From Beroe forskalii (taxonomy: Eukaryota; Ctenophora; Nuda; Beroida; Beroidae): DNA of 64,000 nt. The stretch covers positions 124,001 through 188,000 of the forward strand of contig WFMF01000035.1 in NCBI GenBank assembly GCA_011033025.1, read 5' to 3'. Both the position numbers and the translations under genes were made by a program. A model generated the notes under the pieces. That model did no database searches. It was not told the origin of the DNA and worked only from the letters and a program-made list of their open reading frames with translations. The stretch's first letter is position 1. Every line of letters begins with the position of its first letter. Below are positions 4,500-63,898 of this stretch, piece after piece.

Positions 4500-6125
4500 T
4501 ATGGAGCAAGCAAGAGTGCGAACGCATCTCTCAAAAGTGCGCGCGCATCTCTCAAGATCAAGAGTGCGCGCATCTCTTTAGAGTGCGCGCGCATCTTCTT
4601 AAGAGTGCGCGCGCATCTTTCAAGAGTGCGCGCACATCTCTCAATAGCTGTGCGCGCACATCTCTCAATAGTGCGCGCGCATCTCTCAATAGTGCGTGCG
4701 CATCTTTCAAGAGTGCGTGTATCTCTCAAGAGTGCGCGCGCATCTCTAATAAGTGCGCGCTTATCTCTCAAGAGTGCGCGCGCATCTCTAAAAAGTGCGC
4801 GCTTATCTCTTAAGAGTGCGCGCGCATCTCTAAAAAGTGCGCGCTTATCTCTTAAGAGTGCGCGCGCATGTCTAAAAAGTGCGCGCGCATCTCTCAAGAG
4901 TGCGCGCGCATCTCTCATGAAGATTGTGCGCGCATCTCTCAAGAGTGCGCGCGCATCTCTCATGAAGATTGTGCGCGCATCTCTCAAGATTGTGCGCGCA
5001 TCTCTCAAGAGTGCGCGCGCATCTCTCAAGAGTGCGCGCGCATCTCCCAAGAGTGCACGCGCATCCCTAAAAGTGCGCGCGCATCTCTCAAGAGTGCGCG
5101 GCATCTCTCAAGAGTGCGCGCATCTCTCAAGAGTGCGCACGCATCTCTCAAGAGTGCGCGCGCATCTCTCAAGAGAGCGCGCGCATCTCTCAAGAGAGCG
5201 CGCATCTCTCAAGAGCGCGCGCATCTCTCAAGAGCGCGCATCTCAGAAAGAGCGCGCATCTCTCAAGAGAGCGCGCGCATCTCTCAAGAGAGCGCGCGCA
5301 TCTCTCAAGAGAGCGCGCGCATCTCTCAAGAGAGCGCGCGCATCTCTCAAGAGAGCGCGCGCATCTCTCAAGAGAGCGCGCGCATCTCCAAGAGCGCGTG
5401 CGCATCTCTCAAGAGCGCGCGCATCTCCAAGAGCGCGCGCGCATCTCTCAAGAGCGCGCGCGCATCTCTCAAGAGCGCGCGCGCATCTCTCAAGAGAGCG
5501 CGCGCATCTCTCAAGAGAGCGCGCGCATCTCTCAAGAGAGCGCGCGCATCTCTCAAGAGTGCGCGCTCATCTCTCAAGAGTGCGCGCTCATCTCTCAAAA
5601 GTGCGCGCGCACTCTTGAGAGATGCGCACGCATCTCTCAGGAGTTCGCGCGCATCTCTCAGGAGTGCGCGCGCATCTCTCAAGAAAGCGCGCGCATCTCT
5701 CAAGAGTGCAAGCGCATCATTCAAGAAAGCGGGCGCATCTCTCAAGAGTGCAAGCGCATCACTCAAGAGTGCACGCGCATCTCTCAAGAGTGCACGCAAA
5801 TCCCTCAAAATTGCGTGCTTCTCTCTCAAGAGCTAGAGTGCGCGAACCTTTCTCAAGAGTGCGTGCACCTCTTTCGAGAAGGCGTGCACCTCTCTCGAGA
5901 GTGCGTGCACCTCTTTCGAGAGTGCGTAAACCTCTCTCAAGTGTGCGTAAACCTCTCTCAAGAGTGTGTGCACTGCACCTTTCTCAAGAGTGCGTGCACC
6001 TCTCTCAAGAGTGCGTGTACCTCTCTCAAGAGTGCGTACACCACTCTCAAGATTGCACGTGCGTCTCTTAATATTGCACGTGCGTTCTCAAAAGTGCGCG
6101 GGCATCCCTTAAGATTGCGCGTGCA
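4500..6125. repeat. 21-bp CG-rich minisatellite, about 75 units
   Basis: Imperfect tandem repeat with unit AGTGCGCGCGCATCTCTCAAG and 19-21 bp variants. The GCGCGC core is an alternating purine-pyrimidine, CpG-dense, Z-DNA-prone block recurring every two helical turns. Because 21 is a multiple of three and the unit has no stop codon, long heptad ORFs appear in several frames on both strands (SARASLK, ECARISQ and VRAHLSR on plus; RDARALL on minus). I treat these as repeat artefacts. The right end drifts to GTGCACCTCTCTCAAGA-type units from about 5840. Confidence 0.95.
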
Positions 6126-7396: not shown

Positions 7397-10300
7397 AACC
7401 GCCTGTCCAACCTCAAAGCCAATGAAAGCATTGACAACGATCTGAGCTTGAGTGCAGCGGAAGATTGTGGCTTGGAGTCCGAGAGATCTTACGAATCAAT
7501 ACCGATAATATCAGGTAATATGCCCCATAAGCATGGCTTTTGGTTATTTTCAAACACAAGGAAATATTTGTATAGTTCAACTTCCGTTAAAATTTAATGC
7601 TGTTGTAAATAGGTTGCGATACGTTGTAAAAGGCCACGGTTATAACTTTGCAAACTATGAAAAACTTCTCATGCTCAGCAAAGAGTGGAGTGCCCACAGG
7701 ACGTCTTGGGATGGTCGGTGCAGCTCTGTTTATCGTGGGAGAAATGACCGGATCTGGAATCTTAGGTGAGACATGCTTCATACCTTCTACAATAAGCACT
7801 TTATGAATATGATAGAATTCCACTGTGATATATTGGAGCGGAGAGCAGACCTCAGGAAGTTTCACCTTACGACATATCGCCTCGTAATACCTCAAAAAAG
7901 TTAGGGTTTGTGTGATATTTAGGGTGAGGACTGAGAGATGAGGTGTCGTGAGAGGTGAAATTTTGTGTTGTGTTAAGTCGGGCTCTCAACCTTCTACTGG
8001 ACACTTAACGTGTTTTCTAACTTAACGTGACATACTACGAACATGTTTCACCTAACCAGGTGCTAACGCCGATCGTTACTTAGAGTAACGAACGCGTTTC
8101 AGGTGTTCCTCAAGCAATATCGTACTCTGGGTTCAGCGGCATAGGTCTGATGGTGCTCTGTGTGTGCGTGGCCAGCTACACTGGACTGGTACTAAGCAGG
8201 AACTGGATGCATGTCAGAGACCAGTGAGTACCTTATCGGACTAATTATCAAGGAATAATTACGCCGAGCACCTCAGCGTGAATATTAAAAAGTTATATCT
8301 GTGATACTATATAGTCCGTGATTTTCAGGTGCTTGAAAATTAACCCATTAACGACGAGATATGTCCGATAGGGTATATTAAAGTACTAAAGTACTACGAG
8401 GTTACACATGGCAAAGTGGTGATCCTATCATATACCATACTTTAATGATTGCATAAATGAGGTTGCTACAAGAAGGGGTATAATCAATAACCATCATTTG
8501 ATTCAAATAGTGGACAGCTGCCAGATCTGTAACCGGAAGTGGTAGCATAAGAACTGAGCTCTTAAGAATAACTAAAAGTTTGACAATTTGGTCCCATTTA
8601 AAAGCACAGCAGCTGGGGCATATAGTTACTTAAGTTTCGATTATTGATTTCCTAATACCATTATAGTGACTGCTCAACGTTCATAAAATAGCTTATCCCC
8701 TATCGATCAAAATCAGATGACAGTTTTCTTAGATAAATATCGATGGTTGTTTGATAAACATTGAACCCTAAACTGCTTCCCAGAGACTTGACAAGAACTG
8801 TCACAACTGAAGCTCCATTCAATTTCATAAGTTACTGAAGTCATTTCACCTCTAGTTCATGAACGAATTAAGGTATCAATAAGAAACAGTGTAAGATTTT
8901 ATCTTTTTATCATGAAAGAACATCTCAGGTACCCACACTGCAGCAAGCCTTATCAGAGGATTGGTTACACAGCGTTTGGTCAAGGAGGGGAGATTGCAGT
9001 TCAGATAAGATGACTTCTAATTTCCAAGTATTGCTAGCCAACCTGTCCGCTACCAGGTTGGAAGAGTGGATCCATGCCACTAAACAGACCATGAGTAACC
9101 GACCACTATAGAAATAAATCAAAATTTGTGCTCCAAGTCCGTATAAACCACTGGATTTTACCACCATGATTATTGAATAGTCGTTTATCTTCTCAGATAT
9201 GTGCCACAGTTACTCTGATTGGGGGCTGTTGTGCATACATCCTGATAGCAGCACAGAGTTTGGCCAGGTTTCTTTACTTGGAGAGTCCGATGTCATTCAT
9301 ACATTCCCAGACCGGGATCTTTCCCCCAGTGCTTCGAGTCCCAACTTGTTTCACTGTTTTTACTTTTAGTTATTCACAGACCTATGCACTTTTTGAATTC
9401 CTATTTCACAGTGACATGATTTCAGGAGACGGGAACTGACGTAGTCGAATATCGGTCGTGCGTAGCCATAATGGCAGTTGTCTTCCTTCTAGTCCTCATA
9501 TTTGGTATGCCATTCATGATTTCAATGATTTCACCAGGCTAGATAAGAATTAGTTCTTCATTGACAATGACCTTGATTTATCTAAATCAGCACAATGTAC
9601 TAATGTACTTCTACTCTTCTCTTTTCTCAAAGACTTCTGTTTTCAGGGGCTGGTAAGGAGTCTCTGATTGTAGCTATCATAGCTACAGTCCTTTCCATTA
9701 TCTTCACTATCATCATATTCTGTGGTATCATTATGACAGGGAAGCCTGACAACTTCCAACCTTACCACGTGACACCTCCCGGTGTTTTCTAAAAGTAGAA
9801 ACATAACACATGATCGTTAAACAAATCTTATAAACTTGGGAAATCATACCAGAGTACCAGCAAAACCTTCAATTCAACCGCCTTCAACTCACGTGACACC
9901 TAAATCGTGGTTTTTGAGTTTTGGGAAGTTTCTCTTTGCCTTTGGAGGACATTCAGCATTCCCAAACTTCCAAAAAGAAATGAAGAATCCAAGGAACTTT
10001 CCTGGATCTATTTTGATAGCTTTCGTGATCAAGTTGGTTCTTTACATACCTCTTGGTGTCGTTGGAATGCTGTTCTTTGGGGATATGCTTCATGCCAATA
10101 TTCTGAATAACATCAGCGGGGATCTTCAAGCTAATCGAAGTTCCAAAAGGAGCCCAAATTGAGATCTAGGTGGTGAAATTTCACTGAATTGTGTTGTTAT
10201 GATCTCACTTAAATGTTTTCATCCTCTAATACCATGTAAAATGTAAATAGCTTTACATTATAGTCTTTAGACTCTCGGAATACCAAAGAACCTATTTCAG

Positions 10301-10414
10301 CTATCAACGTGTCTGTGCTGTTGCTGGTTGCAGTCCAAGCGATCATGTCAGCCACCATTCTTGGGAACCCAGTGGTAGTTATGATTGAGGGAGCAGTCAA
10401 CACACCACCCGACA
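7397..10414 (+). pseudogene. Aa_trans amino-acid transporter, truncated copy 1
   Basis: Exons of an SLC32/36-type amino-acid/proton transporter (Aa_trans family, multi-pass membrane protein). They are: 7397-7514 (cytosolic N-terminal segment), 7679-7765 (GMVGAALFIVGEMTGSGIL, TM1), 8103-8223 (GVPQAISYSG to RDQ), 8929-9004 (YPHCSKPYQRIGYTAFG), a 9197-onward exon (TVTLIGGCCAYILIAAQ), 9426-9504 (CVAIMAVVFLLVLIFG), 9647-9768, 9893-10130 (FAFGGHSAFPNFQKEM, a family hallmark) and 10301-10414. The last exons are missing because the duplication ends at 11148. Lesions: the donor after 9004 reads ATAAGA where copy 2 has GTATGA, the acceptor before 9893 reads CAC instead of CAG, the donor at 10131 is CTAATC, and a GTGAGC donor present in copy 2 near 30258 is deleted near 9343. 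The first coding exon upstream of 7397 was not found. I call it a degraded duplicate unless the splice lesions prove to be assembly errors. Confidence 0.75.
8562..8565. other. Empty TTAA target site of the 1.9-kb insertion in copy 2
   Basis: Copy 1 reads GAGCTCTTAAGAATAAC across this point. Copy 2 has the same flanks with 1923 bases plus one extra TTAA between them (27516-29446). This is the pre-insertion allele in paralogous form. Confidence 0.85.
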
Positions 10415-14967: not shown

Positions 14968-15596
14968 ATTTTATAATTGGATAATTGACCAATTAAACCA
15001 ATTATCGCCTATATCTCATCTCAGAAAGATGGTATCGACTTCATTCCAACGCCATCGTAAACTTTGGCATAAATTGCGTAAAGTGAGCTATGTAAAAATT
15101 TTCATTGCAAATCGCTTAATTGGATAATTGGCCAATTAAACCAATTAACGCTTATATCTCGTCTCAGGAATATGGTATCGACTTCATTCTAACGCCATCG
15201 TAAACTTTGGCATAAATTGCGTGAACTAAGCTATATAAAAGCTTTCATTGCAAATCGTTTAATTGGATAATTGGCCAATTAAACCAATTATCGCTTATAT
15301 TTCGTCTCAGGAACATGGTATCGACTTCATTCTAACGCCATCGTAAACTTTGGCATGAATTGTGTGAAGTGAGCTACATAAAAGTTTTCATTGCAAATCG
15401 CTTAATTGGATAATTGGCCAATTAAACCAATTATCACTAATATGTCGTCTCAGGAACATGGTATCGACTTCATTCCAACGCCATCGTAAACTTTGGCATG
15501 AATTGCGTAAAGTGAGCTATGTAAAAATTTTCATTGCAAATCGATTAATTTGATAATTGGCCAATTAAACCAATTATCGCTTATCTTCGTCTCAGG
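14968..15596. repeat. 143-bp tandem repeat, about 4.3 units
   Basis: The marker GGTATCGACTTCATT recurs at 15031, 15174, 15317 and 15460, exactly 143 bases apart each time. Each unit also holds an inverted AATTGG/CCAATTAAACCAATT cluster. The array ends just left of the foldback element at 15635. The unit is near nucleosome length; no coding capacity. Confidence 0.92.
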
Positions 15597-15634
15597 ATTT
15601 GTTGAACAAAATTTGTTAACAAAAAGAATGATAT

Positions 15635-16122: not shown

Positions 16123-18075
16123 TTAATCCTGCATGTAAGTAATCTTGACCTCAGCCAGTGCACTGTTCTCCACATCTGCCACCATCTCGTCAATACCTTG
16201 CCAGTGCTTTTCATCCACAAAGAACCTTCTGTCGAAGGGGTATCCCATGGGCTTCTTATCGGGGTACTTAGCGTCCACCTTGCCACAGAAAGCCACATTC
16301 CCTGTCATCCTCACACTCGCATCCACAGCGTCCTCATTCCAATCCGTAACCAGGACAAACAGCTTGGTCTTCATGCCTCCTGGAGATCCTCTGGGGATGA
16401 GCAGGTTCCGGGGCCAGCCACAGCCACAGTACGGCTTGGTGCCTTCCTCCACTCCGTTCTTGATGGCTTCCACAGTACTCACGTCCGCCATCAAGACGGA
16501 CGAATCTTTGGACTCCCTCTCCACTGTCTCGCTCTGTCCCGCCTTAACTTCCTGGACAAAGCAGTCCAGTTCGATGAAGGAGGTCTTCTGGTGGTCTAAG
16601 TTGGGCACCCACTGGTCTGGACACAAGAAGACTCTGAAACAGAGCAGAGCGTCCTCTGTGCGGGTGTTGGTCACATCGAATTTATATGTGAAGGGGGCGT
16701 GCTGCAGGATAATCTGCTTCACTACTCTCTCCGGGTCGTCATGGTCCTGCAAATGGATGTTTATCTGCTCGTTCTCCATCCAGGTGTAGAGATGGTTGTT
16801 CCTGTCCTCCTCACTTATCTTCCTCATGTGATCCTTATCATCATCCCTGCTTACCACAGAGACGGAATCCAGGGTCACTCCCCCAATCTCCAGTGTCTGC
16901 TTATAATACGGGGTGAGGGTTTGTCGGTACTCCTCAAAGATGTTATCCACGTATTTGTGCCACCTGAAGAACACCGGGTCCCTCATGGCTGTCAGAGTGT
17001 CGTACATGGGTCCGTACTTTATGCCGAACCTGTTGTCCGGGTCGTTTACCATGGCCAGGACCAAGTGGCCGTTGTTGTGCAGGTTCCCATAGAGGAGCGT
17101 GTTGATGGATCCCATGTTAGCCTCCACTGTGCAACCCAGGTTATGCATCGTTATCTCAGCTTCCTTCTTTTTATCATCATCGCCGCCCCCAAGCAGTGGG
17201 ATTTCCCTCTCCAGGTAATTCCGGGCGATGGAAATGTGGAGACGTTCTCTGCTTGTCTCCATGGAACTCTTCAGGATTTTACGAGTGGGTCGGAAGTCCG
17301 CCTTTTCAGGAATGGGCATGTTAGCTGCCCTGTAGGAGTACCCTTCCAGTTTCCCATTGTACCCCTCCACCAATGGGCCATCCCAGCCCTGTCCTGGCCC
17401 GTAGGGCACTACGTGAGACAGTCCGACACCCAGTCTCTCAAAGTCGTACCTGGCAAGCGCCTGCTCGTGCATGTAAGCGAACAGCTCTCCCTGCCGGTCT
17501 TTGGGCGCGGAATCAGTGTTGTAGTAGACATGCCAGTTGTAGTGATGCTCATTCAGGGATGGGTCCTCCCTCCACCACGCCAACTTAAACTCAGGGTCCC
17601 GGTACTCAGGTGCTCCTATCTTCGGGGGTTTCGGGATGTCGGGTTCTGCTGCAGCAAAACGAAACGCTGCTTCCTTCTTGGTGGCATCTTTGAGCTGGTC
17701 GGTGGTGAAGAAGGCGGTGGGTCGGACCTGGGAGACAGGAGGCATGATGGCGTTCCGGGTTGGAGGGTGCTTGAAGAAGGTAACTCTGGAGAGATAGTCG
17801 GAGTACGCGCTGTCTGGGGCCCGGTTCTTGATGTACTTCAGGACCTCAACGATCTGCTTTGTGTCCTGCAAGGCAACCAACTTCTCTGCTGTTTCCTTGA
17901 CTTTCTGCACGTGTTCCTCGATGAAGACTGAGAAGTCCGGGATGATTTCTATGGGGAAGGGAGGGGTGAAGACTGCGTAGGAAAAGTTTTCATCGTATCC
18001 TGGGAGGAAGGCTTCTAGCACGGACTGACTCGTGGTCGGGTCTGCAGCCTGGTCGCAACCATCACACTCTGACAT
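16123..18075 (-). CDS. Arthropod-type phenoloxidase / hemocyanin, 650 residues, intronless
   Basis: Member of the arthropod hemocyanin superfamily: type-3 copper proteins that oxidise phenols (melanisation, immunity) or carry oxygen. The CuA site is visible at about residues 183-220 as NEHHYNWHVYY followed by GELFAYMHEQALARYDFERL. The CuB site is LYGNLHNNGHLVLAM, then TAMRDPVFFRWHKYVDNIF. All six copper-binding histidine positions appear present. The C-terminal immunoglobulin-like domain carries CGCGWPRNLLIPRG, the thioester-like GCGWP signature typical of prophenoloxidases. There is no signal peptide, as in most PPOs. Length fits the family (about 630-700). The start ATG at 18075 gives the full N-terminal domain. 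Lack of introns contrasts with the multi-exon neighbours and could mean a retrocopy. Phenoloxidase activity rather than oxygen transport is inferred, not shown. Confidence 0.93.
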   Translation of the reverse strand: MSECDGCDQAADPTTSQSVLEAFLPGYDENFSYAVFTPPFPIEIIPDFSVFIEEHVQKVKETAEKLVALQDTKQIVEVLKYIKNRAPDSAYSDYLSRVTFFKHPPTRNAIMPPVSQVRPTAFFTTDQLKDATKKEAAFRFAAAEPDIPKPPKIGAPEYRDPEFKLAWWREDPSLNEHHYNWHVYYNTDSAPKDRQGELFAYMHEQALARYDFERLGVGLSHVVPYGPGQGWDGPLVEGYNGKLEGYSYRAANMPIPEKADFRPTRKILKSSMETSRERLHISIARNYLEREIPLLGGGDDDKKKEAEITMHNLGCTVEANMGSINTLLYGNLHNNGHLVLAMVNDPDNRFGIKYGPMYDTLTAMRDPVFFRWHKYVDNIFEEYRQTLTPYYKQTLEIGGVTLDSVSVVSRDDDKDHMRKISEEDRNNHLYTWMENEQINIHLQDHDDPERVVKQIILQHAPFTYKFDVTNTRTEDALLCFRVFLCPDQWVPNLDHQKTSFIELDCFVQEVKAGQSETVERESKDSSVLMADVSTVEAIKNGVEEGTKPYCGCGWPRNLLIPRGSPGGMKTKLFVLVTDWNEDAVDASVRMTGNVAFCGKVDAKYPDKKPMGYPFDRRFFVDEKHWQGIDEMVADVENSALAEVKITYMQD

Positions 18076-21000
18076 GACTAGACTGACTTAGAATCTAAGG
18101 AGAAGTTGTAGTAAGTTGATTATTAAAGTATTAAGTGACTTAGAAGGTAGGGAGAAGTTGTAGCAAGTTAATTATTAAGTGAGTGGACATTGGTCAAAAA
18201 TTATAATGGAAGTCTTTACACGCGATTTTTCCCTGCTTTGACTGACAATTATTTAAATTTTGGGAGAGCTACTAAAAACCTATCGTTTGCTTAACCTCTA
18301 AATTAACTTAGTTCTACATAAACAGAAAACTGATATTTTTGAAGCCACTGCTGCTTGAATAAATTTTCATTAATTGTGATTTTCTTTCTATATGAATTAT
18401 CACGTGCACCAGAAATTAACACTTGTCGTGATGAATGATATTGAGTGACATAATGGAATCCAAATTATTCTAGAAAATCTCTGGGGTGCATAGACAGAGA
18501 GATCCTTTACGCAGCAGGTGCACTAAACCATCTGTCCTGATTTTTGCTATACCAAGCCATGTTAAAATTAACAAGTCTAAGACTGCGAATTTGATAACTG
18601 AGTTTTTTAATAAATAAAATTGGATTTAAAAGCGAAATCAAGGAAAATTTATCCCTAAAAAGTTAGATTTTGCTCGCAGCAGCTGCTTAAATATGATTTT
18701 GTTTGTGACTTTTCCTCCATAAAGCCACGTGCCGTATCAGACTCAATTAAACTAATCAATTTGAGCAAGTCATATCATGCTGCTGCCTCATATTATTTTC
18801 AGACCGGAAAATAGACCGGCAAATTAAATCAAGATTAATTTCTCTTTTTCCTGCAATTAACATATTTTGCTGCAGGTGGTTGAAAATGAATGTTGAAAAA
18901 ACATTTGAAAATTTCTAAGCAGCAAAAACAACATAGTTTTATTGCTACAATAAACGATGCTTGTAACAACTTTACTCGTCCTGTTTCTCTCCAAGAAATC
19001 CCTTTTCTTCACTCCTTGCTGCTGGCATATTAAAACTTTTGCTTAATTATTCATGATATTATGCGATAGTTAAAAAGATACCGAACAGGAAAACGATAAA
19101 ATGCTCATAGCATTTATAGAAATCAAATGCAATAATGCATGTTGTTCATTTTAAAAGCCCGGAGCATGGAATTGCTAATTCTTAAAATTAAATGATATTT
19201 TTATGTCTTTCGGAATCAGATATTAAATACTTAGGTTTTTAGAATTACAAGCAAAAATTTAAATAAGTTATTTTCTTAAGAATTTCCTCCAGTAGCAATA
19301 GCTTTAGAAAGTTGATTTTCAAGTAAAACTATAAAAATGTAAAACACTGTTTGTATTTTAAAGCCCTGCAATAGATTCTCACAGTTCTGCAGATCCATAA
19401 GTCGAATTTAAATTGTAGTAATTTTAAAAATTCTGACCCGTACAAAATTACAAAGGCTTTCTTAATTAAATTCTCAAAATAGGCCTGCAAAATGATGATT
19501 ATTTGCAAGTGCGCGCGCGTTGCAATTGACAAAATTCCGCCTCAAACTTTTTCGGTCTTCCTGATATGTTATGAAAAGTTTGACTCACTATCATTTACTT
19601 GCGCCTTGCGAAAAATCGTGAAATTTTAAGTAACGCCTTATATGGGTTCTCATCGTACCCAAAGTGGTGAAAACTGAGGGCACATCTTGGACATAGCGAT
19701 GGAATTTTTATCGAATATTCTTCTCTTCGCATCTTGTTCACATCGGTATTGATCAAGAGATGATTTTGTAAGACAGAGGGACATACGGCACTGATACCAC
19801 AATTGCTAAAGATAGGAAGAGTTATGGGACGAGTAGTACCAGAACCAAAGATGTAATTGTCATCTTTGGATAACAATATGTACTGTCACGTGATCCTTTA
19901 TGATGGAGTTCCTTGAAGCTGTCCTCTGTAATTTCCGACTGCCTGGTTTCAAACACTGGCCCTCTATGCTAGTTCTCTTAACTGGAGTCGCGTAGGGTTG
20001 TCCTCTGTTCCGATATCTCGCTCCTCTTTTGAGGGGTCTTTTTATATCATCTATGCTGGTCCTCTATTGCAACGAATCCTTAGTTAGTGTTACCAGTCCA
20101 ATCAGTTTCAGATTAAAACGGCCGGGAATCAAATCAAAATCATTCAATATTACCATTTCATTGTCTCTCCTCACAGTCCCGTACTCTGAAGTACTGCCTT
20201 GATGTTGAACTCCTACGACCACACCACTTTTGCCAGCAATTTCAAGTCTACATAAATCTACAATCGTGTTCCACTACCAAGTACTGCTGGTCCTGTCTTG
20301 ATGGCAACAGCACTGCTCTGTTAGAAAGAGAATTGGCTTTAATGACTTCCTTCATCTTCTGTCTTTCTGTGGATCTTTTTCAAGGGTACCAGCGTCGCTT
20401 ATCCAGCTAGAACCCTTACAATGAATGAGAAAAATGCGCGTTCTCTCTTCCGGGCTATTTAACTGTTTTTAGATGGATTTCTCCCATTCCTAGCGCGCAA
20501 CACTCGGAAATTTGGAGGGTGGTGTTGCAGAAAAATATGGCGTGCTGAGTTTTACCCTCGGTGTGCCCTCAATGTGCTTACCCTCAGTGTGTCTGAGGTG
20601 TTGCCCTCAGGGTACCCTCAGTTTGCATCGGTGTTTTACCGAGTTAGTTACCCTTTCTTCATAATTTATCGTTTAATGGCGCTCACGCCATTTCACCACG
20701 AATTGCTTTTCAGTGCCAACTGCCAGTTACACTCTTACATAGTTACATGTTGGATAGTAAAAGTAAATCATTAGAATTAGAATTTTATTTATTTAGAATT
20801 ATACTTTTTGTGTGAATCGAAGAATCCCTCTTTTATTTCAAATTTTAAACTTACCTAGGAAGTTTTTGAAACATAGAAAAACACGTTTTCCCAGCAATGA
20901 CGTATATATTAATCAACTAAATTTTGATTATCAAAATTCAAAACATATTTACAGAATTGGAGCAAACTATATACAACCAATTACTTGATATATATACACT

Positions 21001-23244: not shown

Positions 23245-24054
23245 ATCTCTCAAGTGCGCGCATCTCTCAAGTGCGCGCGCATCTCAAGTGCGCGCGCATC
23301 TCTCAAAGTGCGCGCGCATCTCAAGTGCGTCTTCAAGTGCGCGCGCACATCTCAAGAGTGCGCGCACTCTCAAGAGTGCGCGCATCTCTCTCAAGAGTGC
23401 GCGCGCATCTCTCAGAGTGCGCGCATCTCTCAGAGTGCGCACGCGCGCATCTCAAGAGTGCGCGCGCATCTTTCAAGAGTGCGCGCGCATCTCTCAAGAG
23501 TGAGTGCGCATCTCTCAAAAGTGCGTGCGCCTCTCTCAAGAGTGCCGTGCACCTCTCTCAAAGAGTGCGCGCATCTGCACGCTCTCAAGAGTTCCCGTGC
23601 GCGCTCTCAAGAGTGCGTGCGCCTCTCTCAAGATTGCGCATCTCTCAAGATTGCGTGCGCCTCTCAAGAGATTGCGTGCACCTCTCAGGGTCGTGCGCTC
23701 TCTCAAGATTGTGTGCCTCAGTCAGAGTGCGTGCACTCTCTCAAATAATTGTACCCTCTCAGATTGCGTGCACCTCTCTCAAGATTGCGTGCACCTCTCT
23801 CAAGATTGCGTGCACCTCTCTCAAGAGTGCGTGCACCTCTCTCAAGATTGTGTGCACCTCTCTAGTCAAGAGTGCGTGCACCTCTCTCAAATGGGCGTGT
23901 ACCTCTCTCAAATGGGCGTGTACCTCTCTCAAATGAGCTTGCACCTCTCTCGAGGGTGCGTAAACCTCTCTCAAGAGTGCGTGCACCTCTCTTGAGAGTG
24001 CGTGTATCTCTCTCAAGAGTGCGTGTACCTTTCTCAAGAGTGCGTACACCTCTC
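23245..24054. repeat. 21-bp CG-rich minisatellite, second locus
   Basis: Same unit family as 4500-6125 (GTGCGCGCGCATCTCTCAAGA), here about 38 units, more degenerate, grading into GTGCACCTCTCTCAAGA and GTGTACCTCTCTCAAA units toward the right. Long multi-frame ORFs over it are repeat artefacts. Confidence 0.93.
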
Positions 24055-24434
24055 TTTCACTTCTTCACTTCTTTTCTTCATCACTTTTTCATTTTTCACT
24101 TTTGCATTTTTTATATCTTCACTTCTTCAATTCTTCACTTCTTCAATTCTTCACTTTTTCACTTCTTCGCTTTTTCACTTCTTCATAACTTCTTCCCTTC
24201 TTAACATCTTCACTTATTTATTTCTTCACTCCTTCACTTGTGCACTCGCAAGTGAAGGAGTGAAGAAATAAATAAGTGAAGATGTTAAGAAGGGAAGAAG
24301 TTATGAAGAAGTGAAAAAGCGAAGAAGTGAAAAAGTGAAGAATTGAAGAAGTGAAGAATTGAAGAAGTGAAGATATAAAAAATGCAAAAGTGAAAAATGA
24401 AAAAGTGATGAAGAAAAGAAGTGAAGAAGTGAAA
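24055..24434. repeat. Perfect 186-bp-arm palindrome, 8-bp spacer
   Basis: Bases 24055-24240 (pyrimidine-rich TTCACTTCTTC repeats) are the exact reverse complement of 24249-24434; I checked the arms base by base and saw no mismatch. The spacer is TGCACTCG. Both strands therefore read the same short peptide from opposite sides. The right arm matches the unique purine tract that follows the minisatellite in copy 1 (from about 6125), so the left arm is the added one. Confidence 0.95.
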
Positions 24435-25743: not shown

Positions 25744-28700
25744 AACCGTCTGTCTAACCTCAAAGCCAATGAAAGCATTGACAACGATCTGAGCTTGAGT
25801 GCGGTGGAAGATTGTGGCTTGGAGTCCGAGAGATCTTACGAATCAATACCGATAATATCAGCAAAGAGTGCCTCATTAGCACGACTTTTGGTTATTTTCA
25901 AACACAAGGAAATATTTCATTTGTGTAGTTCAACTTCCGTTAAAATTTAATGCTTTTGTAAATAGGTTGCGATACGTTTTAAAATTTAAAAGGACAAGGT
26001 TATAACTATGAAACTATGGTTAATCCTCAGCAAAGAGTGGAGTGCCCACAGGACGTCTGGGGATGGTAGGTGCAGCTCTGTTTATCGTGGGAGAAATGAC
26101 TGGATCTGGAATCTTAGGTGAGACATACTTATGAGCTTACGAGCATATATATTGATAGAACTTCCATTGTGATATATTGGAGAGGGGGACAGACCTCAGG
26201 CAACTTCACCTCAAGACACATCACCTCGTTATTCTTCGAGGCAAAGGTTAAGGTTTGGGTTATATTAAGGGTGAGGACTGGGAGATAAAGTGTCGTGAGA
26301 GGTGAAATTTCATGTGGTGAAAAGTCTGTCTCCCAACCTATTTTAATGACCACTTAACGTGGTGTTTTCTCACTTAATGTGACATCCTACGAACGTTTTT
26401 CAGGAGTTCCTCAAGCCATATCATACTCTGTGTTTCAGGTGTTCCTCAAGCCATATCGTACTCTGTGTTTCAGGTGTTCCTCAAGCCATATCGTACTCTG
26501 TGTTTCAGGTGTTCCTCAAGCCATATCATACTCTGTGTTTCAGGCGTTCCTCAAGCCATATCGTACTCTGTGTTTCAGGAGTTCCTCAAGCCATATCATA
26601 CTCTGTGTTTCAGGTGTTCCTCAAGCCATATCGTACTCTGTGTTTCAGGTGTTCCTCAAGCCATATCTTACTCTGTGTTTCAGGTGTTCCTCAAGCCATA
26701 TCGTACTCTGTGTTTCAGGTGTTCCTCAAGCCATATCGTACTCTGTGTTTCAGGTGTTCCTCAAGCCATATCGTACTCTGTGTTTCAGGAGTTCCTCAAG
26801 CCATATCGTACTCTGTGTTTCAGGAGTTCCTCAAGCCATATCGTACTCTGTGTTTCAGGTGTTCCTCAAATAATGTACTCTGTGTTTCAGGTGTTCCTCA
26901 AAGCCATATCGTACTCTGTGTTTCAGGTGTTCCTCAAGCCATATCGTACTCTGTGTTTCAGGTGTTCCTCAAGCCATATCGTACTCTGTGTTTCAGGAGT
27001 TCCTCAAGCCATATCGTACTCTGTGTTTCAGGTGTTCCTCAAGCCATATCGTACTCTGGGTTCAGCGGCATAGGTCTGATGGTGCTCTGTGTGTGCGTGG
27101 CCAGCTACACTGGACTCGTACTCAGTCGGAACTGGATGCATGTCAGAGACCAGTGAGTACTGAGTAGTGAGTACCTTACCGTTATAATCAGTATCACGGG
27201 CATTATGCTGAGCATCTCAGCATGAACATTAAAGTCCGTGAAAATAATTTCCGTGATACTATAATGTCCGTGATTTTAAGGTGCGTGAAAATTAACCCAC
27301 TAATAAATGACGAGATATGTCCGATAGGGTATATTAAAGTACTAAAGTACTAAGAGGTTACATGGCAAAGTGGTGATCCTATCATATACCATACTTTAAT
27401 GATTGCATAAATGAGGTTGCTACAAGAAGGGGTATAGTCGATAACCATCATTTGATTCAAATAGTGGACAGCTGCCAGATCTGTAACCGGAAGTGGTAGC
27501 ATAAGAACTGAGCTCTTAAAGGACGAGTGTACTTAAAATTAACCTATCCTCATATTCAAATCATATGTCAAGTACGTGTTACTAAGCATTTCTGTGAAAT
27601 CCCGGTAATCAAATTCCCTTCCTATCGCGTGTGAGAGCTAAATAAATAAATTATGCTGTGACGTCAGTTCTTCCTTATGCGCTCCCGTATATACTGCGTG
27701 AGAGCTTATACTAACACTAGTTTTACATCATAATGAAAGCGTTTCTGCTGATTAATCATTAATTTTTAAAGATAAATTCAAAATCACACCTGTGAGTGGT
27801 AGCAGAAGTAATGCAATGTAAAATCATGTGCATAAATGAGAAAAAAAAAGGTTCAATAACCCAATCAAGAGTCAAATATATACTCGGATATTATTATGAA
27901 TAGACGTGATATCATATCTGTACGTTTCACATTTCAATAATACCATACAGCACTACAATAACAATGAGTACAATACACTTCCACCAGTTTTGTTATCATT
28001 TTGTGTCGATGTTTCTTGTTTTCCAATTACAGTTTTACAGTACGAGAGAAGAATTGAAAAAATAATAGACTCATGAGTAAAAAGGTCGCAATGGATCCTT
28101 GGATCCATCGTGTCCAATGGACGTCCGTTGGACATACAATGGACATCCATTGAACATGATGTCCATCGGTAAAATTGTCCAATGGTGTTCAATGGATCCA
28201 TTGGATCCATTTTTTGATGTTTAATGGACATGTTCGATGGATTTAATAGATGTTCAATGGATCCATCTGAGTGGATCCGGTGGACACGGTCACCAAACAT
28301 GGCTTGGTAGACGACCATCGGTCTGGTATTTTTGTTTTATGGATCCGTTGTGTCCATTGGATTCAATGGATCCATTGCGTCCATTGAAAACGATTGCAAA
28401 TTGTGTCCATTGGATCCATTAGATGTTTTGCACATTGTGTCCATTGGATCCATTGTGTCCAATGGATCCATTGAGTTCAATGGAAAAAATGCATCCATTG
28501 GATCCAAAAGCACAATCGATCCAATGGGCGTGTACAATGGTGTTCAATGGGCACAATGGATCCATTGGACCAATGGATGCATAGATGTTCATCTCCCAAA
28601 CCATGTTTGGTGATTGTGTCCGTTGGATCCGCTCAGATGGACCCATTATACATCCATTGAACACCATTGGACAATTTTACCGATGTACATCATGTTTAAT

Positions 28701-31700
28701 GGATGTCCATTGTATGTCCAACGGACGTCCATTGGACATGATGGATCCACGTGAGAAACACAGCATACAGGTGTGTCTTACATATTCTAATTTCAGAGGT
28801 TTAGGAATAGGTAAAAGGTACAAGCTTCCATCCTGTGTTGAGCACGTCATCAGAGAATTGTAACCTAGTCCTGGTGGAAAATGCACAGGTTTTCATGGAT
28901 TAGACGAAGTAAATTCACTGAAAGAATTCCATAGTACTTGTAGCAATTACCAAATAAAGTTAACGAGATAGTTTAAAACGATACACTGTTGTCTAAGGCA
29001 TATCATATGAGATACGTCTTGTTCTTGTTTCACTATGTCTAAAGGATAATAAGTTCACATATCTAGATTTTTGTCATTATTGATTGATAATCAATTTATA
29101 GTGCGTTATTAAACAACAGAAGATTTATTGTTATAAAACCAGATTGAACAACTGAACTTAGTAATCTGCTGTGAAACAAAACAATAATAGATCAATTAGG
29201 TATAGCAACAGAATTAGTGTTTACATAGCGATTTTACATACACAGCGACTGTGGGCAGTGATTCCAAGGAAGAACTGACGTCACACCATAAGGTATCATG
29301 TTTCTAATTTACGCCCATATCTTGCGTTACACACGGAGTAGAGAGGTGGGACTTTCGAGATTCGATTACTATAATAATAATGATGATATACTGAATTTTT
29401 TGTTATATTTAGAAGAAGTCAATTTTTAAGTACACCCGTCCTTTAAGAATAACTAAAAGTTTGACAATTTGGTCCCATTTAAAAGCACAGCAGCTGGGGC
29501 ATATAGTTACTTAAGTTTCGATTATTGATTTCCTAATACCATTAGTGACTGCTCAACGTTCATAAAATAGCTTAAATACTTTATCTTTTATCGATCAAAA
29601 TCAGATGACAGTTTTCTTAGATAAATATCGATGGTTGTTTGATAAATATTGAACCCTAAACTGCTTCCCAGAGACTTGACAAGAACTGTCACAACTGCAG
29701 CTCCATTCATAAGTTACTGAAGTCATTTCACATCTAGTTCATGAACGAATTAAGGTATCAATAAGAAACTGTGAAAGCTTTTATCTTTTTATCATCAGAT
29801 CATCTCAGGTACCCACACTGCAGCAAGCCTTATCAGAGGATTGGTTACACAGCGTTTGGTCAAGGTGGAGAGATAGCAGTCCAGGTATGATGAGAATTAT
29901 AATTTCCAACTATTGCAGTATTGCTAACCAACTTGTCCGCTTCCATTTCCAGTTTGGAAGAGTTGATCCATGCCATTAAACAGACCATGAGTAACCGACC
30001 ACTATAGAAATAAATCAGAATTTGTGCTCCAAGTCCGTATAAACCACTGGATTTTTACCATGATCATTGAATGGTCATTAATCTTCTCAGATATGTGCCA
30101 CGGTAACTCTGATTGGGGGCTGCTGTGCATACATCCTGATAGCAGCTCAGAGTTTGGCCAGGTTCCTTTACTTGGAGAGTCCGATTTCATTCATAATCAT
30201 ACACTATTTGTTAACTTCCCAGACCGGGATCTTTCCACTAGTGCGTCGAGTCCCAAGTGAGCCATCTTGTTTCACTGTTTTCACTTTTATAGTTATTCAC
30301 GGACCTCTTTTAGAATTCTTATTTCACAGTGACATAATTTCAGGAGACGGGAACTGACGTTGTCGAATATCGGTCCTGTGTAGCCATTATGGCAGTTGTC
30401 TTCCTTCTAGTCCTCATATTTGGTATGCCATTCAACTTTAATGATTTCACTTTAGGCTAGGTAAGAATGAGTTCTTTATCGACAATTACCATGATTTATT
30501 TAAATTCATAAGGCGCCCGTAACGTTCGTCGGTCGATCGATTGGAATTGGTCGATCGATCAACTTCATTTGATCGACTGATGTGTTTTGAATAGAAAATG
30601 CCCTGATCGATATCATTGGGAACGAAGGTCTAAATGGGGACGACAAAATCTCACAGAATTTTATGTCATTTTATTTTTGTCATTTTTATGTCATTTTATT
30701 TTTGTCAGAAGAAATTCTAAAAACACACTTTCGCTCTCTGGAAAATTATACACTATGCTTGATACATGTCATTCTATTTCCTCCCGTTACCATATCTCAT
30801 AACATGGTGTTATTTTTAGAGCTTGATGCACTGATCACGGTAAGGCATAATATGCTACTGAATATGATGTAGTCCTCTAATTTCCTCTCTTGTGTTCTAC
30901 TTGAGGCTCCCGACGATAAGTCTAGCGTTACCCCCGCGGTATCGCGCCGTTCCTCACTTTCCATACGTAAAGCTATGATATTAATGATTTTTGGAATCAG
31001 AGGATGTCTTTAATTAATCGAATTTGATGTTGTCCTCTTCTCAGCTCCTTGAGAAAAAGTGGAGGTTCAACGTCATCAACATAACACACCGATCTATGAA
31101 ATTAACGACATTTTAACCGCCGACTTATGATCTGTGGGCTTATTAATCCTTGGCGGATATCAAGCTTGATGTATCATAATATTGCCATGTAGTATTCAAC
31201 CGCAATGAATAATTTCCTATGGAACTTGAGGTAAATGTGAAAGGCTATGATGAGGATCAGCACCCTAAAGTAATTGTGATAATTTCATACCATATTCATA
31301 AATCATATGGTGCATTATGAAATCTAATTTTTATCATGATAGGCCACAATTCGTTCATTTTGGCTGAAGTGGACTGTGGAGCCATTGCTACCATTGTATA
31401 TCAAAGCTTAAATTTGTTACTTTACACGTCGCCTTTTTCGCACTGTACGGTATTATGTACATAAAAAATTTGCTAATTAATAAAAGTTAATTCAATTAGG
31501 ACATCCTTTGAAATTTTTGGGGACGACCAATTAACAATGATATCGATCTGGGAGAAAATGTTTGAGCTAGTAGGAAAACAACTAAATATTGATCATTTAA
31601 ACACGATTCAAGTCATTAGGGACCAGTAAAAAACACCATTTGTTCAAATGGAGTTGATCGATCGACCAATTCCAATCGATCGACCGTCGAACGTTACTGG

Positions 31701-33779
31701 CGCCTAATTCCTACTTCTTTCTAGCTGGTCAATCTCTATTCTCAGAGACCTCTGTTTTCAGGAGCTGGTAAGGAGTCTCTGATTGTAGCTATAATCGCTA
31801 CAGTCCTTTCCATCATATTCACTATCATCATCTTCTGTGGTATCATCATGACAGGGAAGCCTGACAACTTCCAACCTTACCACGTGAGTTCTTCTGGTGC
31901 TTTCTGGAATTGGCCAGGTATTTCAAAGCCTGCTTAAAGTTAATTTATAAAAGTAGAAATATAAACATGAGTTATACCTTATCATCGTGGGAAATCATAC
32001 CAGAGTACCACTACCAGCAAAGCCTTTGATTCAACCGCCTATAACTCAGGTAACACCTAAATCTTGGTTTCTAAGTTTTGGGAAGTTCCTCTTTGCCTTT
32101 GGAGGACATTCAGCATTCCCAAACTTCCAAAAAGAAATGAAGAATCCAAGAAACTTTCCTGGATCTATTTTGATAGCTTTCGTGATCAAGTTGGTTCTTT
32201 ACATACCTCTTGGTGTCGTTGGAATGCTGTTCTTTGGGGATATGCTTCATGCCAATATTCTGAATAACATCAGCGGGGATCTTCAAGCTAATAGAAATTC
32301 CAAAAGGAGCCCATTGAGATCCTTAGGTGGTGAATTTGGTGAAATTTCATTGAATGGTGCTATGTCATGATCTCGGTTATGTTTTCATCCTCTAATACCA
32401 TGTAAAATGTAAATAGCTCTATATTATAGTCTTTAGACTCTCGGAATACCAAAGAACCTATATTTTCAGCTATCAACGTGTCAGTGCTGTTACTGGTTGC
32501 AGTACAAGCGATCATGTCTGCTACCATCCTTGGAAACCCCGTGGTTGTTATGATTGAGGGGGCAGTGAACACACCACCCGACAGTATGTTCATTTTACAT
32601 CTTAACAATGAATCTCTTATCATGCCACATACTCACATAGATCAGACATAGCTGGTAACCAGATTTCTTGTTGCCATACAGTTGGCTATAACAAGCATAC
32701 ACATTTTTCAGTTATGTGACGTTTCAGCTATAGGATTTTAAAAACTATCATCTAGATTCTGGAATTACCAACCCAATAATTATCACCATGGAGTTAAATT
32801 TCCAATAACGATGTGAAACTTCAGGGCTACTGGAATTACCAACCCAATAATTATCACCAGGGAGTTAAATTTCCAATAACGATGTGAAACTTCAGGGCTA
32901 ATTAGTTGGAAGCGAGTTCTAGTAAGATTCTGTAGTGTCTTGGGGGTTGTCATCATCTGTGAAGCTATACCAAGGTAAATTGCAAAATGGCCGACTGGCA
33001 CCTATCAGGTACTGATCAGCGATACCACCGATCATCGCCGATAAAAATGGACCTTCTTCTATTGGCGGTCAGGTGGTATCGGTGCCGATCTGCCCACGAT
33101 CGCCGTCGGCGAATTGCTCAAATTCCATCGGCGGTCATCAGCACCGATCACTCATGACTGGCGCTGATGTAACGCCGATGAGCGCCGAGTCGGCGATTTT
33201 TCAATGTTCATTTGTCAATTTTTCGTGATCCTAACTTACAATTCACTTTAACGTACAATTTACTGTCAAAGTTTTCAAGAAATGTTATTGTTTAACATAA
33301 GGATGTTCTTTCCATCGACTTAATTGTCTGCTCATCTGTGCTGCAGGTTTGACCTCATAATGGCACTAATTGGTGGCACTACCATTAACACAGCAGTCTT
33401 TATTCTGCCTTGTCTATTCCACATGAAGCTGGCGAAGAATGATCAGTGGCACAAGATGAAGATAAATATCGTGATCACAGTTATATCTTCTCTTGGGAAA
33501 ACCTTATTCAAAACTATAATTTATTTTTGGTTTGGTTTCACATTGTCGGTTAAGCAAATGGAAATCTTGTACACAATTACCTTTTCTTTTGGATCATGGC
33601 CACATTCAAATTAATTAAAGGTAATAATTGTACCTATTTTTGTATCCACTGCAGTATTTTTTTATCAAAATGAAATATTTCAGATATCATTTGACATCAT
33701 GGCAATCATATTTGGTGTAGTTGCTGGCTGTGTGTGTACTTATGCTTCTATTGCTCATATTGTGGAAGCATATCAATAA
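25744..33779 (+). CDS. Aa_trans amino-acid transporter (SLC32/36-like), copy 2 with 3' end
   Basis: Multi-pass amino-acid/proton transporter of the Aa_trans family. Exons: 25744-25861, 26031-26117 (FIVGEMTGSGIL), 27032-27152, 29809-29884, 30091-onward (LIGGCCAYILIAAQ), 30344-30422, 31762-31883, 32050-32287 (FAFGGHSAFPNFQKEM), 32470-32583 (INVSVLLLVAVQ), 33347-33479 (FDLIMALIGGTTINT, a family hallmark) and 33684-33779 (FGVVAGCVCTYASIAHIVEA, stop TAA). Problems: no GT donor follows exon 1 (CAAAGAGTG instead), none follows 32287 (CTAATA), the end of the 30091 exon is uncertain, and I find no exon for the helix between 32583 and 33347, where phases also disagree. Exon 3's acceptor lies at the end of a 19-unit array of itself. 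The first coding exon was not found. Probably the parental gene; whether it is intact depends on the odd splice edges. Confidence 0.75.
26394..27060 (+). repeat. 35-bp array repeating the exon 3 splice acceptor and exon start, 19 units
   Basis: Each unit is the acceptor TGTTTCAG plus the first 27 bases of transporter exon 3 (GTGTTCCTCAAGCC...). The marker GTTCCTCAA occurs 19 times, from 26406 to 27034, spaced 35 except for one 32-base and one 36-base unit. Copy 1 has a single unit at 8101. The unit has no stop in any frame. Acceptors of units 3, 6, 9, 12, 15, 16 and 19 keep the transporter frame; the rest shift it. Confidence 0.95.
27520..29442. mobile_element. 1.9-kb non-autonomous DNA transposon with TTAA target duplication
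   Basis: Starts AGGACGAGTGTACTTAAAAT and ends with the inverse, AAGTACACCCGTCCT, with TTAA at 27516-27519 and 29443-29446. The empty site is intact in copy 1 (8562). TTAA is the piggyBac target, but the termini do not begin CCC, so the superfamily is open. No transposase ORF. The interior holds an inverted repeat (about 28084-28318 against 28585-28748) built from GGATCCATTG/TGTCCAATGG repeats; ORFs there are palindrome artefacts. Confidence 0.85.
28084..28748. repeat. GGATCCATTG-type repeats in inverted arms inside the transposon
   Basis: Runs of ATGGATCCATTGTGTCCA and its variants, many containing self-complementary GGATCC or CCATTGG cores. The outer parts (about 160-230 bases) are imperfect reverse complements, so each strand reads similar peptides from both sides. 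Confidence 0.85.
30512..31704. mobile_element. 1.2-kb non-autonomous DNA transposon, PIF/Harbinger-like
   Basis: About 50-bp terminal inverted repeats: left GGCGCCCGTAACGTTCGTCG followed by GTCGATCGATTGGAATTGG; the right end is the near-perfect inverse, ending CGTTACTGGCGCC. TAA flanks both ends (30509-30511 and 31705-31707), a 3-bp target duplication of the TWA type used by PIF/Harbinger elements. Copy 1 lacks the insertion near 9570. No transposase ORF. Confidence 0.8.
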
Positions 33780-62600: not shown

Positions 62601-63898
62601 ATGAAGTCTGACGTATAGTGGTGTATGTAGTCTGTCGTATAGTGGTGTCAAAGTCTCGTAGCGGTATGAAGTCTGGGGTATTGTGGTGTCAAAGGCTAGT
62701 AGCGGTATGTAGTCTGACGTATAGTGGTGTCAAAGGCACGTATCGGTATGTAGTCTGACGTATAGTGGTGTCAAAAGGCACGTAGCGGTATGAAGTGTGA
62801 CGTATAGTGGTGTCAAAGGCACGTAGTGGTATATTATGAAGTCTGACGTATAGTGGTGTCAAAGGCACGCAGCGGTATGTAGTCTGACTAATAGTGGTGT
62901 CAAAGGCTAGTAGCGGTATGAAGTCTGACGTATAGTGGTGTCAAAGTCTCGTAGCGGTATGAAGTCTGGCGTATAGTGGTGTCAAAAGCACGTAGCGGTA
63001 TGAAGTCTGACTAATAGTGGTGTCAAAGGCAAGAAGCGGTATGAAGTCTGGCGTATAGTGGTGTCAAAACACTAGTAGCGGTATGTAGTCCAACTTATAG
63101 TGGTGTCAAAGTCTCGTAGCGGTATGAAGTCTGAAGTATAGTGGTGTCAAAGGCTAGTAGCGGTATGTAGTCTGACGTATAGTGGTGTCAAAGGCACGTA
63201 TCGGTATGTAGTCTGACGTATAGTGGTGTCAAAGGCACGCAGCGGTATGTAGTCTGACCTATAGTGGTGTCAAAGGCACGCAGCGGTATGTAGTCTGACT
63301 AATAGTGGTGTCAAAGGCAAGAAGCGGTATGAAGTCTGGCGTATAGTGGTGTCAAAACACTAGTAGCGGTATGTAGTCCAACTTATAGTGGTGTCAAAGT
63401 CTCGTAGCGGTATGGAGTCTGTAGTATAGTGGTGTCAAAAGGCGCGTAGCGGTATGAAGACTGAAGTAAAGTGATGTCAAGGGCTAGTAGCGGTATGAAG
63501 TCTGTCGTATAGTGGTGTCAAAGGCACGTAGTGGTATGAAGACTGACGTATAGTGGTGTCAAAAGGTACGTAGCGGTATGTAGTTTGGCGTATAGTGGTG
63601 TCAAAGGCTCGTAGCTGTATGATGTCCGTAGTAAACATTATATTAGTCATGGTGTAAAGTTTTATATGTGCACGGGTAGCGTATTGGAATAAGGTACTAC
63701 TAAGCCAACCAAGACATTATATAAACCTGACGTAGTGCTCTTGTTAAGGTTACTGTCTGTCTCTCCCATGACTTCATGATCGGCACTGTCAGTCTCCATG
63801 CTGTCTGTATCCAAGACAACACTATCAGTTTCCAAGGTAGCACTGTCAGTTGTCATAGCGACACACGAGGAGGAAGAAGATTTCACGGAGCCGTTCAT
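47652..63898 (-). CDS. APBB1: APBB / Fe65 adaptor: acidic N-terminus, WW domain, two PTB domains
   Basis: Fe65-family adaptor that links the APP cytoplasmic tail to nuclear and cytoskeletal partners. Exons: 63727-63898 (acidic, TDS-rich start), 60380-60501 (WW: GDGWEQVQGPTGVYYWHVPSGTTQYQ begins here), 60093-60193, about 59690-59817 (PTB1: VINLGYMDMD, SSVAINECIRKL), 59121-59239 (ILTVRRWGVGSDD), 58775-58910 (NFAYVVKQKQLNCCRCYVL), 48734-48854 (PTB2: RFETLYLGYIRVE), 48430-48513, 47943-48188 (RVRFVSFMALG, FYCHVYQSD, ACNARYQ) and 47652-47723 (FSFWKKLKKK, stop). Domain order and motifs match Fe65. Two joins are uncertain: the end of the 59.7-kb exon, and 48430, where the visible donor leaves one base too many. 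The second G of the WW core and the YYW triplet are kept; the second tryptophan is replaced (TTQYQHP). Paralogue (APBB1, 2 or 3) cannot be assigned. Confidence 0.9.
47907..47932. repeat. TGTC microsatellite in the last APBB intron
   Basis: Five or six TGTC units, the closest simple repeat to the APBB 3' exons. Confidence 0.85.
48575..48657. mobile_element. CCAATCAG-type MITE, copy B (degraded)
   Basis: ACGTATTAGCTTACCTACAG followed by ACCAATTAGTGCGTGAGTT; only the left half is clear. Same family as 46657. Confidence 0.55.
50388..50470. repeat. 21-bp ATAAAGTTATATTTTTCAT repeat, about 4 units
   Basis: CATAAAG followed by (A/T)-rich ATATTTTTCAT, repeated at about 21-base spacing in the long APBB intron. 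Confidence 0.85.
52847..52977. mobile_element. CCAATCAG-type MITE, copy C
   Basis: GCGCATTAGCTTACCCACAG, then TTGACCAATCAGCGCACAAG, ending near CACGGGTAAACTAAATCGC. Same family as 46657. Confidence 0.75.
53851..54416. repeat. 30-bp minisatellite carrying a CCAAT-box array
   Basis: Unit GTATCATCAACCAATCAGAC plus GGCTGGATGA, about 18 units. I count 18 CCAAT pentamers, most as AACCAATCAGA, which is the NF-Y consensus. Unit length is 30, about three helical turns, so sites face the same side of the helix. Open in several frames (MSIINQSDGW on plus, LMILIQPSDW on minus) because 30 is a multiple of three; not treated as coding. Located in the 10-kb APBB intron. Confidence 0.92.
55650..55773. mobile_element. 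CCAATCAG-type MITE, copy D
   Basis: GCGTATTAGTTTACCCACAG, GGCCAATCAGCGCACGAGTT, then CGCTGATTGGTCAATGTC and TGGGTAAGCTAATATGC: a well-kept palindrome of about 124 bases. Confidence 0.82.
56864..56981. mobile_element. CCAATCAG-type MITE, copy E
   Basis: GTAAATTAGTTTACCCAGAA, GGCCAATCAGCGCGCGAGTT facing CTCGTGCACTGATTGGTCAA, ending CCTGGGTAAGCTAAAAC. Confidence 0.78.
58534..58632. mobile_element. CCAATCAG-type MITE, copy F
   Basis: GCGTATTAGCTTAGCAGCTG, GCCAATCAGCGAGCGAATCA facing GCGCAGATTGGTCGATGTCA. It lies about 140 bases downstream of the end of an APBB PTB1 exon. Confidence 0.7.
59271..59535 (+). repeat. G-rich GGGAGTGAGGGGGATAGA tract
   Basis: About 260 bases of nearly pure purine with many GGG/GGGG runs at short spacing on the plus strand, in the APBB intron between two PTB1 exons. 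G-quadruplex potential is high on the strand opposite the APBB message. Confidence 0.9.
60804..61208 (+). CDS. Single-pass membrane protein ORF, 134 residues, nested in an APBB intron
   Basis: Intronless ORF with ATG at 60804 and stop TGA, on the strand opposite APBB, in the intron between the acidic first exon and the WW exon. Residues about 5-27 (TLTVIASFILLLAVSLMGLF, then IYLIR) form one transmembrane segment preceded by acidic MED and followed by positive RTAK, which suggests the N-terminus outside or luminal. The rest is a helical stretch (MRLSGSVNKLIQLQ to FLQKRLKNLLI), then a low-complexity acidic tail. No family recognised. An AATAAA lies at about 61513. Codon usage is more GC-rich than the surroundings, which supports a real gene, but there is no homology evidence. 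Confidence 0.5.
   Translation: MEDTTLTVIASFILLLAVSLMGLFIYLIRTAKQDSAATIMRLSGSVNKLIQLQTTNDRTFLEMQAFLQKRLKNLLIPKRPRSASLGVQADLEAGTETQGSQTQDPNTVIVCGRLPPLLVRPALSSDITLELGEE
61209..62520. other. APBB intron sequence without gene
   Basis: Includes the presumed 3' UTR of the nested ORF and a CG-rich patch with several GCGCGC motifs at about 61590-61640. Nothing else recognised. Confidence 0.5.
62525..63625. repeat. 41-bp minisatellite, about 27 units
   Basis: Unit TAGCGGTATGAAGTCTGACG plus TATAGTGGTGTCAAAGGCACG with point variants and a few 1-5 base length changes. Higher-order pattern: blocks near 62900-63110 and 63300-63420 repeat the same order of variant units. Lies in the first long APBB intron, about 100 bases from exon 63727-63898. 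Confidence 0.93.

Follow-up and report, generated by a model that had tools for sequence, protein, structure and literature searches.

The second copy of a transporter gene in Beroe forskalii carries 19 near-identical acceptors before one exon, which raises the question of how the correct acceptor is recognised if the sequence around it is no guide. Candidate deciding factors are proximity to the exon, first-AG scanning, or decay of the wrong products. The locus was analyzed in a stretch of 64,000 nucleotides (positions 124,001 to 188,000 of contig WFMF01000035.1), referred to here as the window. The array is best explained as a boundary minisatellite, or "mirage", that was probably amplified after the gene duplication, and the last acceptor is most likely the one used in the coding mRNA, with units 1-18 removed as intron (probability of about 0.7, judged from the DNA).

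The transporter gene and its two copies

Exons 1-11 of copy 2 and exons 1-9 of copy 1 were placed by tblastn of exon peptides (Table 1). An approximate join of exons 2-11 of copy 2, used as the query, matched the Aa_trans profile (PF01490) with an E-value of 3.8e-49, over the curated cut-off. The one solved relative found by sequence was the proton-coupled transporter PAT1 (E 2.9e-8), in an alignment that begins at query residue 76 and thus does not cover TM1. The exon 2/3 join of copy 2 falls in GSGILG/VPQA, which we take to be the unwound middle of TM1 in this fold, so that an insert of at least 35 residues should not be tolerated there.

Exons 1-9 are duplicated in tandem (7397-10413 and 25744-33776), while exons 10-11 occur only after copy 2; tblastn of the exon peptides against the window found no exons 10-11 for copy 1. 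The copies differ by 47 synonymous and 1 nonsynonymous nucleotide changes in 343 codons compared, a count that leaves out the end of exon 8 after GDLQ, where the donor is unsure. This end is less conserved. Two indels and one or more amino-acid changes set copy 1 apart there by eye, and an exon extended past this point would contain a TGA in copy 1 and remain open in copy 2. The 47:1 ratio indicates that both copies were held by purifying selection for most of their divergence, which argues that both proteins were constrained for most of their history and that the protein encoded in part by the exon behind the array was needed.

In its present state, copy 1 appears broken, given its lack of exons 10-11, an exon 4 donor that reads ATAAG, and an exon 8 acceptor that reads CAC. 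The last exons may once have served both copies, or copy 1 may have been broken recently. Copy 2 may itself be damaged, as its exon 1 donor is replaced. Footprints were seen at splice sites of both copies: in copy 2, the opening bases of exon 2 stand in place of the exon 1 donor (25861-25870). In copy 1, the 9 bases that open exon 8 occupy the exon 7 donor (9769-9777), the CAC at the exon 8 acceptor resembles the final bases of exon 7 (9890-9892), and the exon 4 donor begins ATA like exon 5 (9005-9009). These footprints look like conversion by spliced cDNA, or like assembly polishing with RNA reads. A search for outgroup copies returned Aa_trans paralogues on contigs C1003 and C413 that matched at exon 10 alone, with 39% identity. 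The window also holds, on the reverse strand at 16123-18087, one open frame of 654 residues that resembles hemocyanin/phenoloxidase (Hemocyanin_M, E 4.2e-36 over the first 399 residues), which to our knowledge would not be expected in a non-bilaterian animal.

Table 1. Coordinates of the transporter copies, the array and acceptor arrays at exon-like frames elsewhere (window positions unless a contig is named)
Feature	Position	Strand	Basis
Copy 1, exons 1-9 (exon 3 at 8103, one unit)	7397..10413	+	tblastn
Copy 2, exon 1 codons; donor after exon 1 replaced by GCAAAGAGTG, resembling exon 2 start	25744..25860	+	
Copy 2, exon 2; intact donor TTAG/GTGAGA	26031..26117	+	
Original intron end before unit 1; putative branch point GTGAC and TTTTTCAG acceptor	26379..26403	+	sequence, frames
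Array of 19 units (35 bp), acceptor and first 27 bases of exon 3	26398..27065	+	TRF, unit list
Unit 14, 32 bp variant with TAA at 26871-26873	26859..26890	+	unit list, ORF
Unit 15, 36 bp variant (+1 base), sets in-frame status of upstream units	26891..26926	+	unit list
Copy 2, exon 3 proper, entered from last acceptor	27032..27152	+	
Copy 2, exons 4-11	29810..33776	+	tblastn; Aa_trans C-terminal match
Copy 2, exon 4-11 codons	29810, 30091, 30344, 31761, 32050, 32469, 33348, 33684	+	
Acceptor arrays at exon-like frames	C1:268k, C1:882k, C1:908k, C1:1350k, C1:1757k, C2:82k		

Structure and origin of the array

The array lies at the intron 2/exon 3 border of copy 2, where TRF reported 26398-27062 with a period of 35, 19.1 copies, a 95% match, and a score of 1209. 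Splitting at TTCAG gave 19 tandem head-to-tail units, 16 of which are 35 bp long (units 1-13 and 16-18), while unit 14 has 32 bp, unit 15 has 36 bp, and unit 19 continues into the true exon. A 19-fold amplification of a 3' splice site and exon start, as claimed in the first-pass annotation, was thus confirmed, with the span now set at 26398-27065. Its description of the unit as the acceptor plus the first 27 bases of exon 3 also held, since the unit reads TGTTTCAG followed by GTGTTCCTCAAGCCATATCGTACTCTG, i.e., 8 intron bases and 27 exon bases, as did its statement that copy 1 has one unit, which is found at exon 3 near 8103. A chance origin of the array was ruled out by the TRF score and by the core 16-mer, which occurs 18 times in the window (17 times inside the array and once, with a mismatch, in copy 1) vs 0.68 expected from shuffles. 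No second copy of the array turned up in a DNA search of the assembly, a search that passes over very common words. The window is rich in minisatellites, with 75 TRF rows, some of them overlapping, and several arrays over 600 bp; minisatellites lie, for example, at 4511-6125, 14974-15597, 23350-24055, and 62623-63626.

All 19 acceptors of the array read TTTCAG. The acceptor of units 2-19 is TGTTTCAG, and that of unit 1 is TTTTTCAG, part of the original intron end. Because acceptors 2-18 share TGTTTCAG with the last one, no local signal marks the last acceptor. AG/GT occurs in 13 of the 19 units, and the GTGTTC donor looks weak by eye. Outside the indels of units 14 and 15, the units vary at base 2 (T in 13, A in 5, and C in 1 of 19) and base 20 (A in units 1, 4, and 6, T in unit 8, and G in the rest) only. 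These four substitution types all fall on third codon positions of the exon frame, a placement that is only suggestive with two sites.

Ordered variants among the units (GTG/GAG/GCG, TCG/TCA/TCT, and the 32 and 36 bp lengths) speak against the actual DNA having fewer units than the assembly. Tandem arrays are error-prone, but the 668 bp are short for long reads, which the 852 kb contig suggests, and similar arrays occur elsewhere in the genome. Assembly expansion is therefore considered very improbable.

The array probably formed by slippage or unequal exchange that amplified, in tandem, a small piece of DNA spanning the intron 2/exon 3 border. A second TTCAG lies 34 bases inside exon 3 and forms a short direct repeat with the TTCAG of the acceptor, and this repeat may have seeded the process. 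We infer that the array probably arose after the gene duplication because copy 1 is without it, loss from copy 1 being the alternative.

Reading frames and acceptor choice

Computed frames showed that acceptors 3, 6, 9, 12, 15, 16, and 19 retain the transporter frame and are open, as had been listed in the first-pass annotation. Their predicted inserts are 186, 151, 116, 81, 47, 35, and 0 residues, respectively, so that the smallest non-zero insert has 35 residues. The other 12 of 19 acceptors are unproductive. The frame from acceptors 1, 4, 7, 10, and 13 is closed by the TAA of unit 14, which ends an open reading frame at 26358..26873 and contradicts the earlier claim that all three frames are stop-free. 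Acceptors 2, 5, 8, 11, 14, and 18 lead to a stop within exon 3 (ending at 27073), and acceptor 17 is open yet out of frame.

If all seven productive acceptors were used, a ladder of transporters with 0 to 186 extra residues would result; this had been suggested together with titration or pausing of splicing by the array. Seven in-frame and open acceptors out of 19 are unique among the seven acceptor arrays examined, and the third-codon-position substitutions of the 35-bp units would also fit coding use. However, the inserts would presumably hit TM1, the codon score of the array frame resembles non-coding sequence, and the seven productive acceptors are explained by the unit being exon in 27 of its 35 bases. 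The +1 base of unit 15, if an assembly error, would leave acceptors 16 and 19 alone productive. The upstream TTTCAG acceptors counted in the other six acceptor arrays are out of frame or stopped, and the amphioxus examples discussed below are reported to splice normally. The functional reading thus found no support, and an isoform ladder is regarded as most improbable.

The exon-proximal last acceptor would be used according to the favoured reading, with the exon starting at 27032 and units 1-18 spliced out as intron, and upstream acceptors would be used occasionally and mostly unproductively. From the frame pattern it follows that upstream use would be unproductive, but not that such use is absent. 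By the scanning rule, the first AG after the branch point is favoured. Unit 1, as the first AG, should then be preferred, which speaks against exon-proximal use, and unit 1 is unproductive. By eye, its acceptor context is the most favourable of all units (TTTTTCAG preceded by GTGAC, the latter presumably branch-point-like). Should unit 1 or a mixture of upstream acceptors be taken, most transcripts would run into a stop, either the unit 14 TAA or that in exon 3, and be destroyed, and copy 2 would be lowered or silenced. Besides the context of unit 1, the 12 unproductive acceptors and the loss of a normal exon 1 donor agree with such a knock-down. The 47:1 ratio, by contrast, points to long-lasting constraint, though the array expansion may be younger; similar arrays occur in genes with domain matches, and splicing is reportedly normal in the amphioxus arrays. 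Knock-down through decoy acceptors is accordingly rated unlikely.

Similar boundary arrays elsewhere in the genome

Patterns were counted genome-wide over the assembly of 216 Mb and 1134 contigs. Three TTTCAGG at a spacing of 23-53 bases gave 1593 matches (829+764) vs 127+25 for the reversed motif. The same three-in-a-row pattern gave 960+632 matches for AGGTAAG (213+292 reversed), 687+263 for TTGCAGG (136+119 reversed), and 212+82 for TTTCTGG (427+16 reversed). The TTGCAGG matches are clustered, 89 of 100 among the matches listed sitting in one stretch of C1. Distinct arrays on contigs C1-C9, counted by eye among the matches listed, numbered 10 for TTTCAGG, 5 for AGGTAAG, 2 for TTTCTGG, and 1 each for GGACTTT and TTGCAGG. 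As TTGCAGG is also an acceptor-type motif, its single array speaks against a general excess. Single motifs in a 128 kb sample, counted on both strands, occurred 28 (TTTCAGG, leaving out the copy 2 array), 24 (TTTCTGG), 21 (GAATGGA), 16 (GGACTTT), and 10 times (AGGTAAG). Arrays with AGGTAAG or TTTCAGG are expected near exons to some degree because both are splice-site words, and enrichment of boundary arrays over chance in this minisatellite-rich genome is at most a tentative reading of the motif counts.

Flanks were fetched for a set of arrays that leaves out those at C2:781 kb and on C10, C67, C110, and C122. Six of nine distinct TTTCAGG arrays are followed by an open exon-like frame that starts at the repeated acceptor (Table 1), C1:882k and C1:908k being paralogues by eye, and L029, L041, and L043 lie at no recognised exon. 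Among six AGGTAAG arrays, five start where an open exon-like frame runs into the repeated donor, and L049 lies at no recognised exon. Ten array-flanking exons were tested for family matches, of which three matched below 0.001: PDZ (1.4e-8, over the cut-off), LTD (3.5e-8, 0.1 bit under the cut-off), and PAP2_3 (2.1e-4); PAP2_3 and a Sushi match at 0.015 were both under the cut-off. Codon scores of the ten exons were at or above 99% of open stretches in five, near 94% in three, and 89.5 and 78% in L061 and L048, respectively, relative to open stretches drawn from the window that may include unrecognised exons. For L044 and L048, an alternative frame equalled or exceeded this score. The scores support five of the ten exons well and three moderately.

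The last TTTCAG alone is in frame and open in each of the other six acceptor arrays (1 of 14, 7, 4, 7, 7, and 39), as is the first donor in four of five donor arrays (1 of 4, 16, 5, and 32); these counts refer to exact motif words in the fetched stretch, and the arrays may hold further variant sites. A sole productive site on the exon side would be predicted if splicing takes the exon-proximal site and no coding constraint acts on the array. None of the seven acceptor arrays apart from that of copy 2 has more than one in-frame open acceptor. Against exon-proximal use stand the fifth donor array, L061 (C2:441k), with 10 in-frame, open donors out of 95, and the possible damage to copy 2. L061 is an 18-bp donor repeat of about 119 copies directly after the weakly Sushi-like exon, and its unit is a multiple of three.

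The COX1-bearing contig of the assembly (13,339 bp) had 17% GC in the 10 kb read, with all frames of at least 90 codons on one strand. TGA is read as tryptophan and AGA stands at COX1 positions that we take to be conserved as arginine. These features fit the very fast mtDNA of a non-bilaterian animal, most likely a ctenophore.

Relation to known systems

Tandem alternative 3' splice sites of the NAGNAG-like type place several acceptors before one exon, some of them in frame. The copy 2 array is similar in both respects but differs by its spacing of 35, its many copies, and its mostly unproductive sites, which are candidate acceptors by sequence alone.

The closest likeness is to the mirages of amphioxus, described as tandem repeats across the intron/exon boundary, at 3' or 5' borders, with many units carrying AG/GT signals and with homogenised copies; they occur in Adh3, the globins BflGb6 and BflGb9, TnC, and PGBD5, and splicing is reportedly undisturbed (PMC3087553, PMC3902484). 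The globin paper adds that repeated sites could act as cryptic sites (PMC3087553). The copy 2 array is of the same build in that its repeat unit spans the intron/exon border of an Aa_trans gene and the repeated units carry AG/GT. Unlike the amphioxus cases, the host is a non-chordate, the units are 19 and short, splicing is deduced from DNA frames, and other arrays of the genome reach 39 TTTCAG acceptors or 95 donors.

Intron gain by tandem duplication across a boundary, which can bring both AG and GT, was reported for potato RdRp (PMC4974935). As in that case and in the Rogers AGGT model, the duplicated segment crosses an intron-exon border, and 13 of 19 units have AG/GT. The DNA gives no sign of a new intron within the array, whose donor looks weak by eye. 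Among the papers found on boundary minisatellites, judged by title and opening of the abstract, close matches were the amphioxus and intron-gain cases only, and no boundary-repeat description appeared among the ctenophore matches listed. Of the ctenophore papers, that on Hormiphora gives 13% tandem repeats and common spliced leaders, and a Mnemiopsis paper of 2025 mentions one tandem repeat, as unassigned sequence.

Significance

The kind of array is already known from the amphioxus mirages, and what is new is the recurrence of boundary arrays in this non-bilaterian genome. Tentatively, and at slightly less than even odds, minisatellite expansion across exon borders may form a genome-wide class at 3' and 5' splice sites, in which the splicing machinery would reliably pick the exon-proximal of up to dozens of identical sites. 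Boundary arrays are a proposed source of new introns. If true, such a class would offer a natural test of exon definition and would be a continuing source of new introns.
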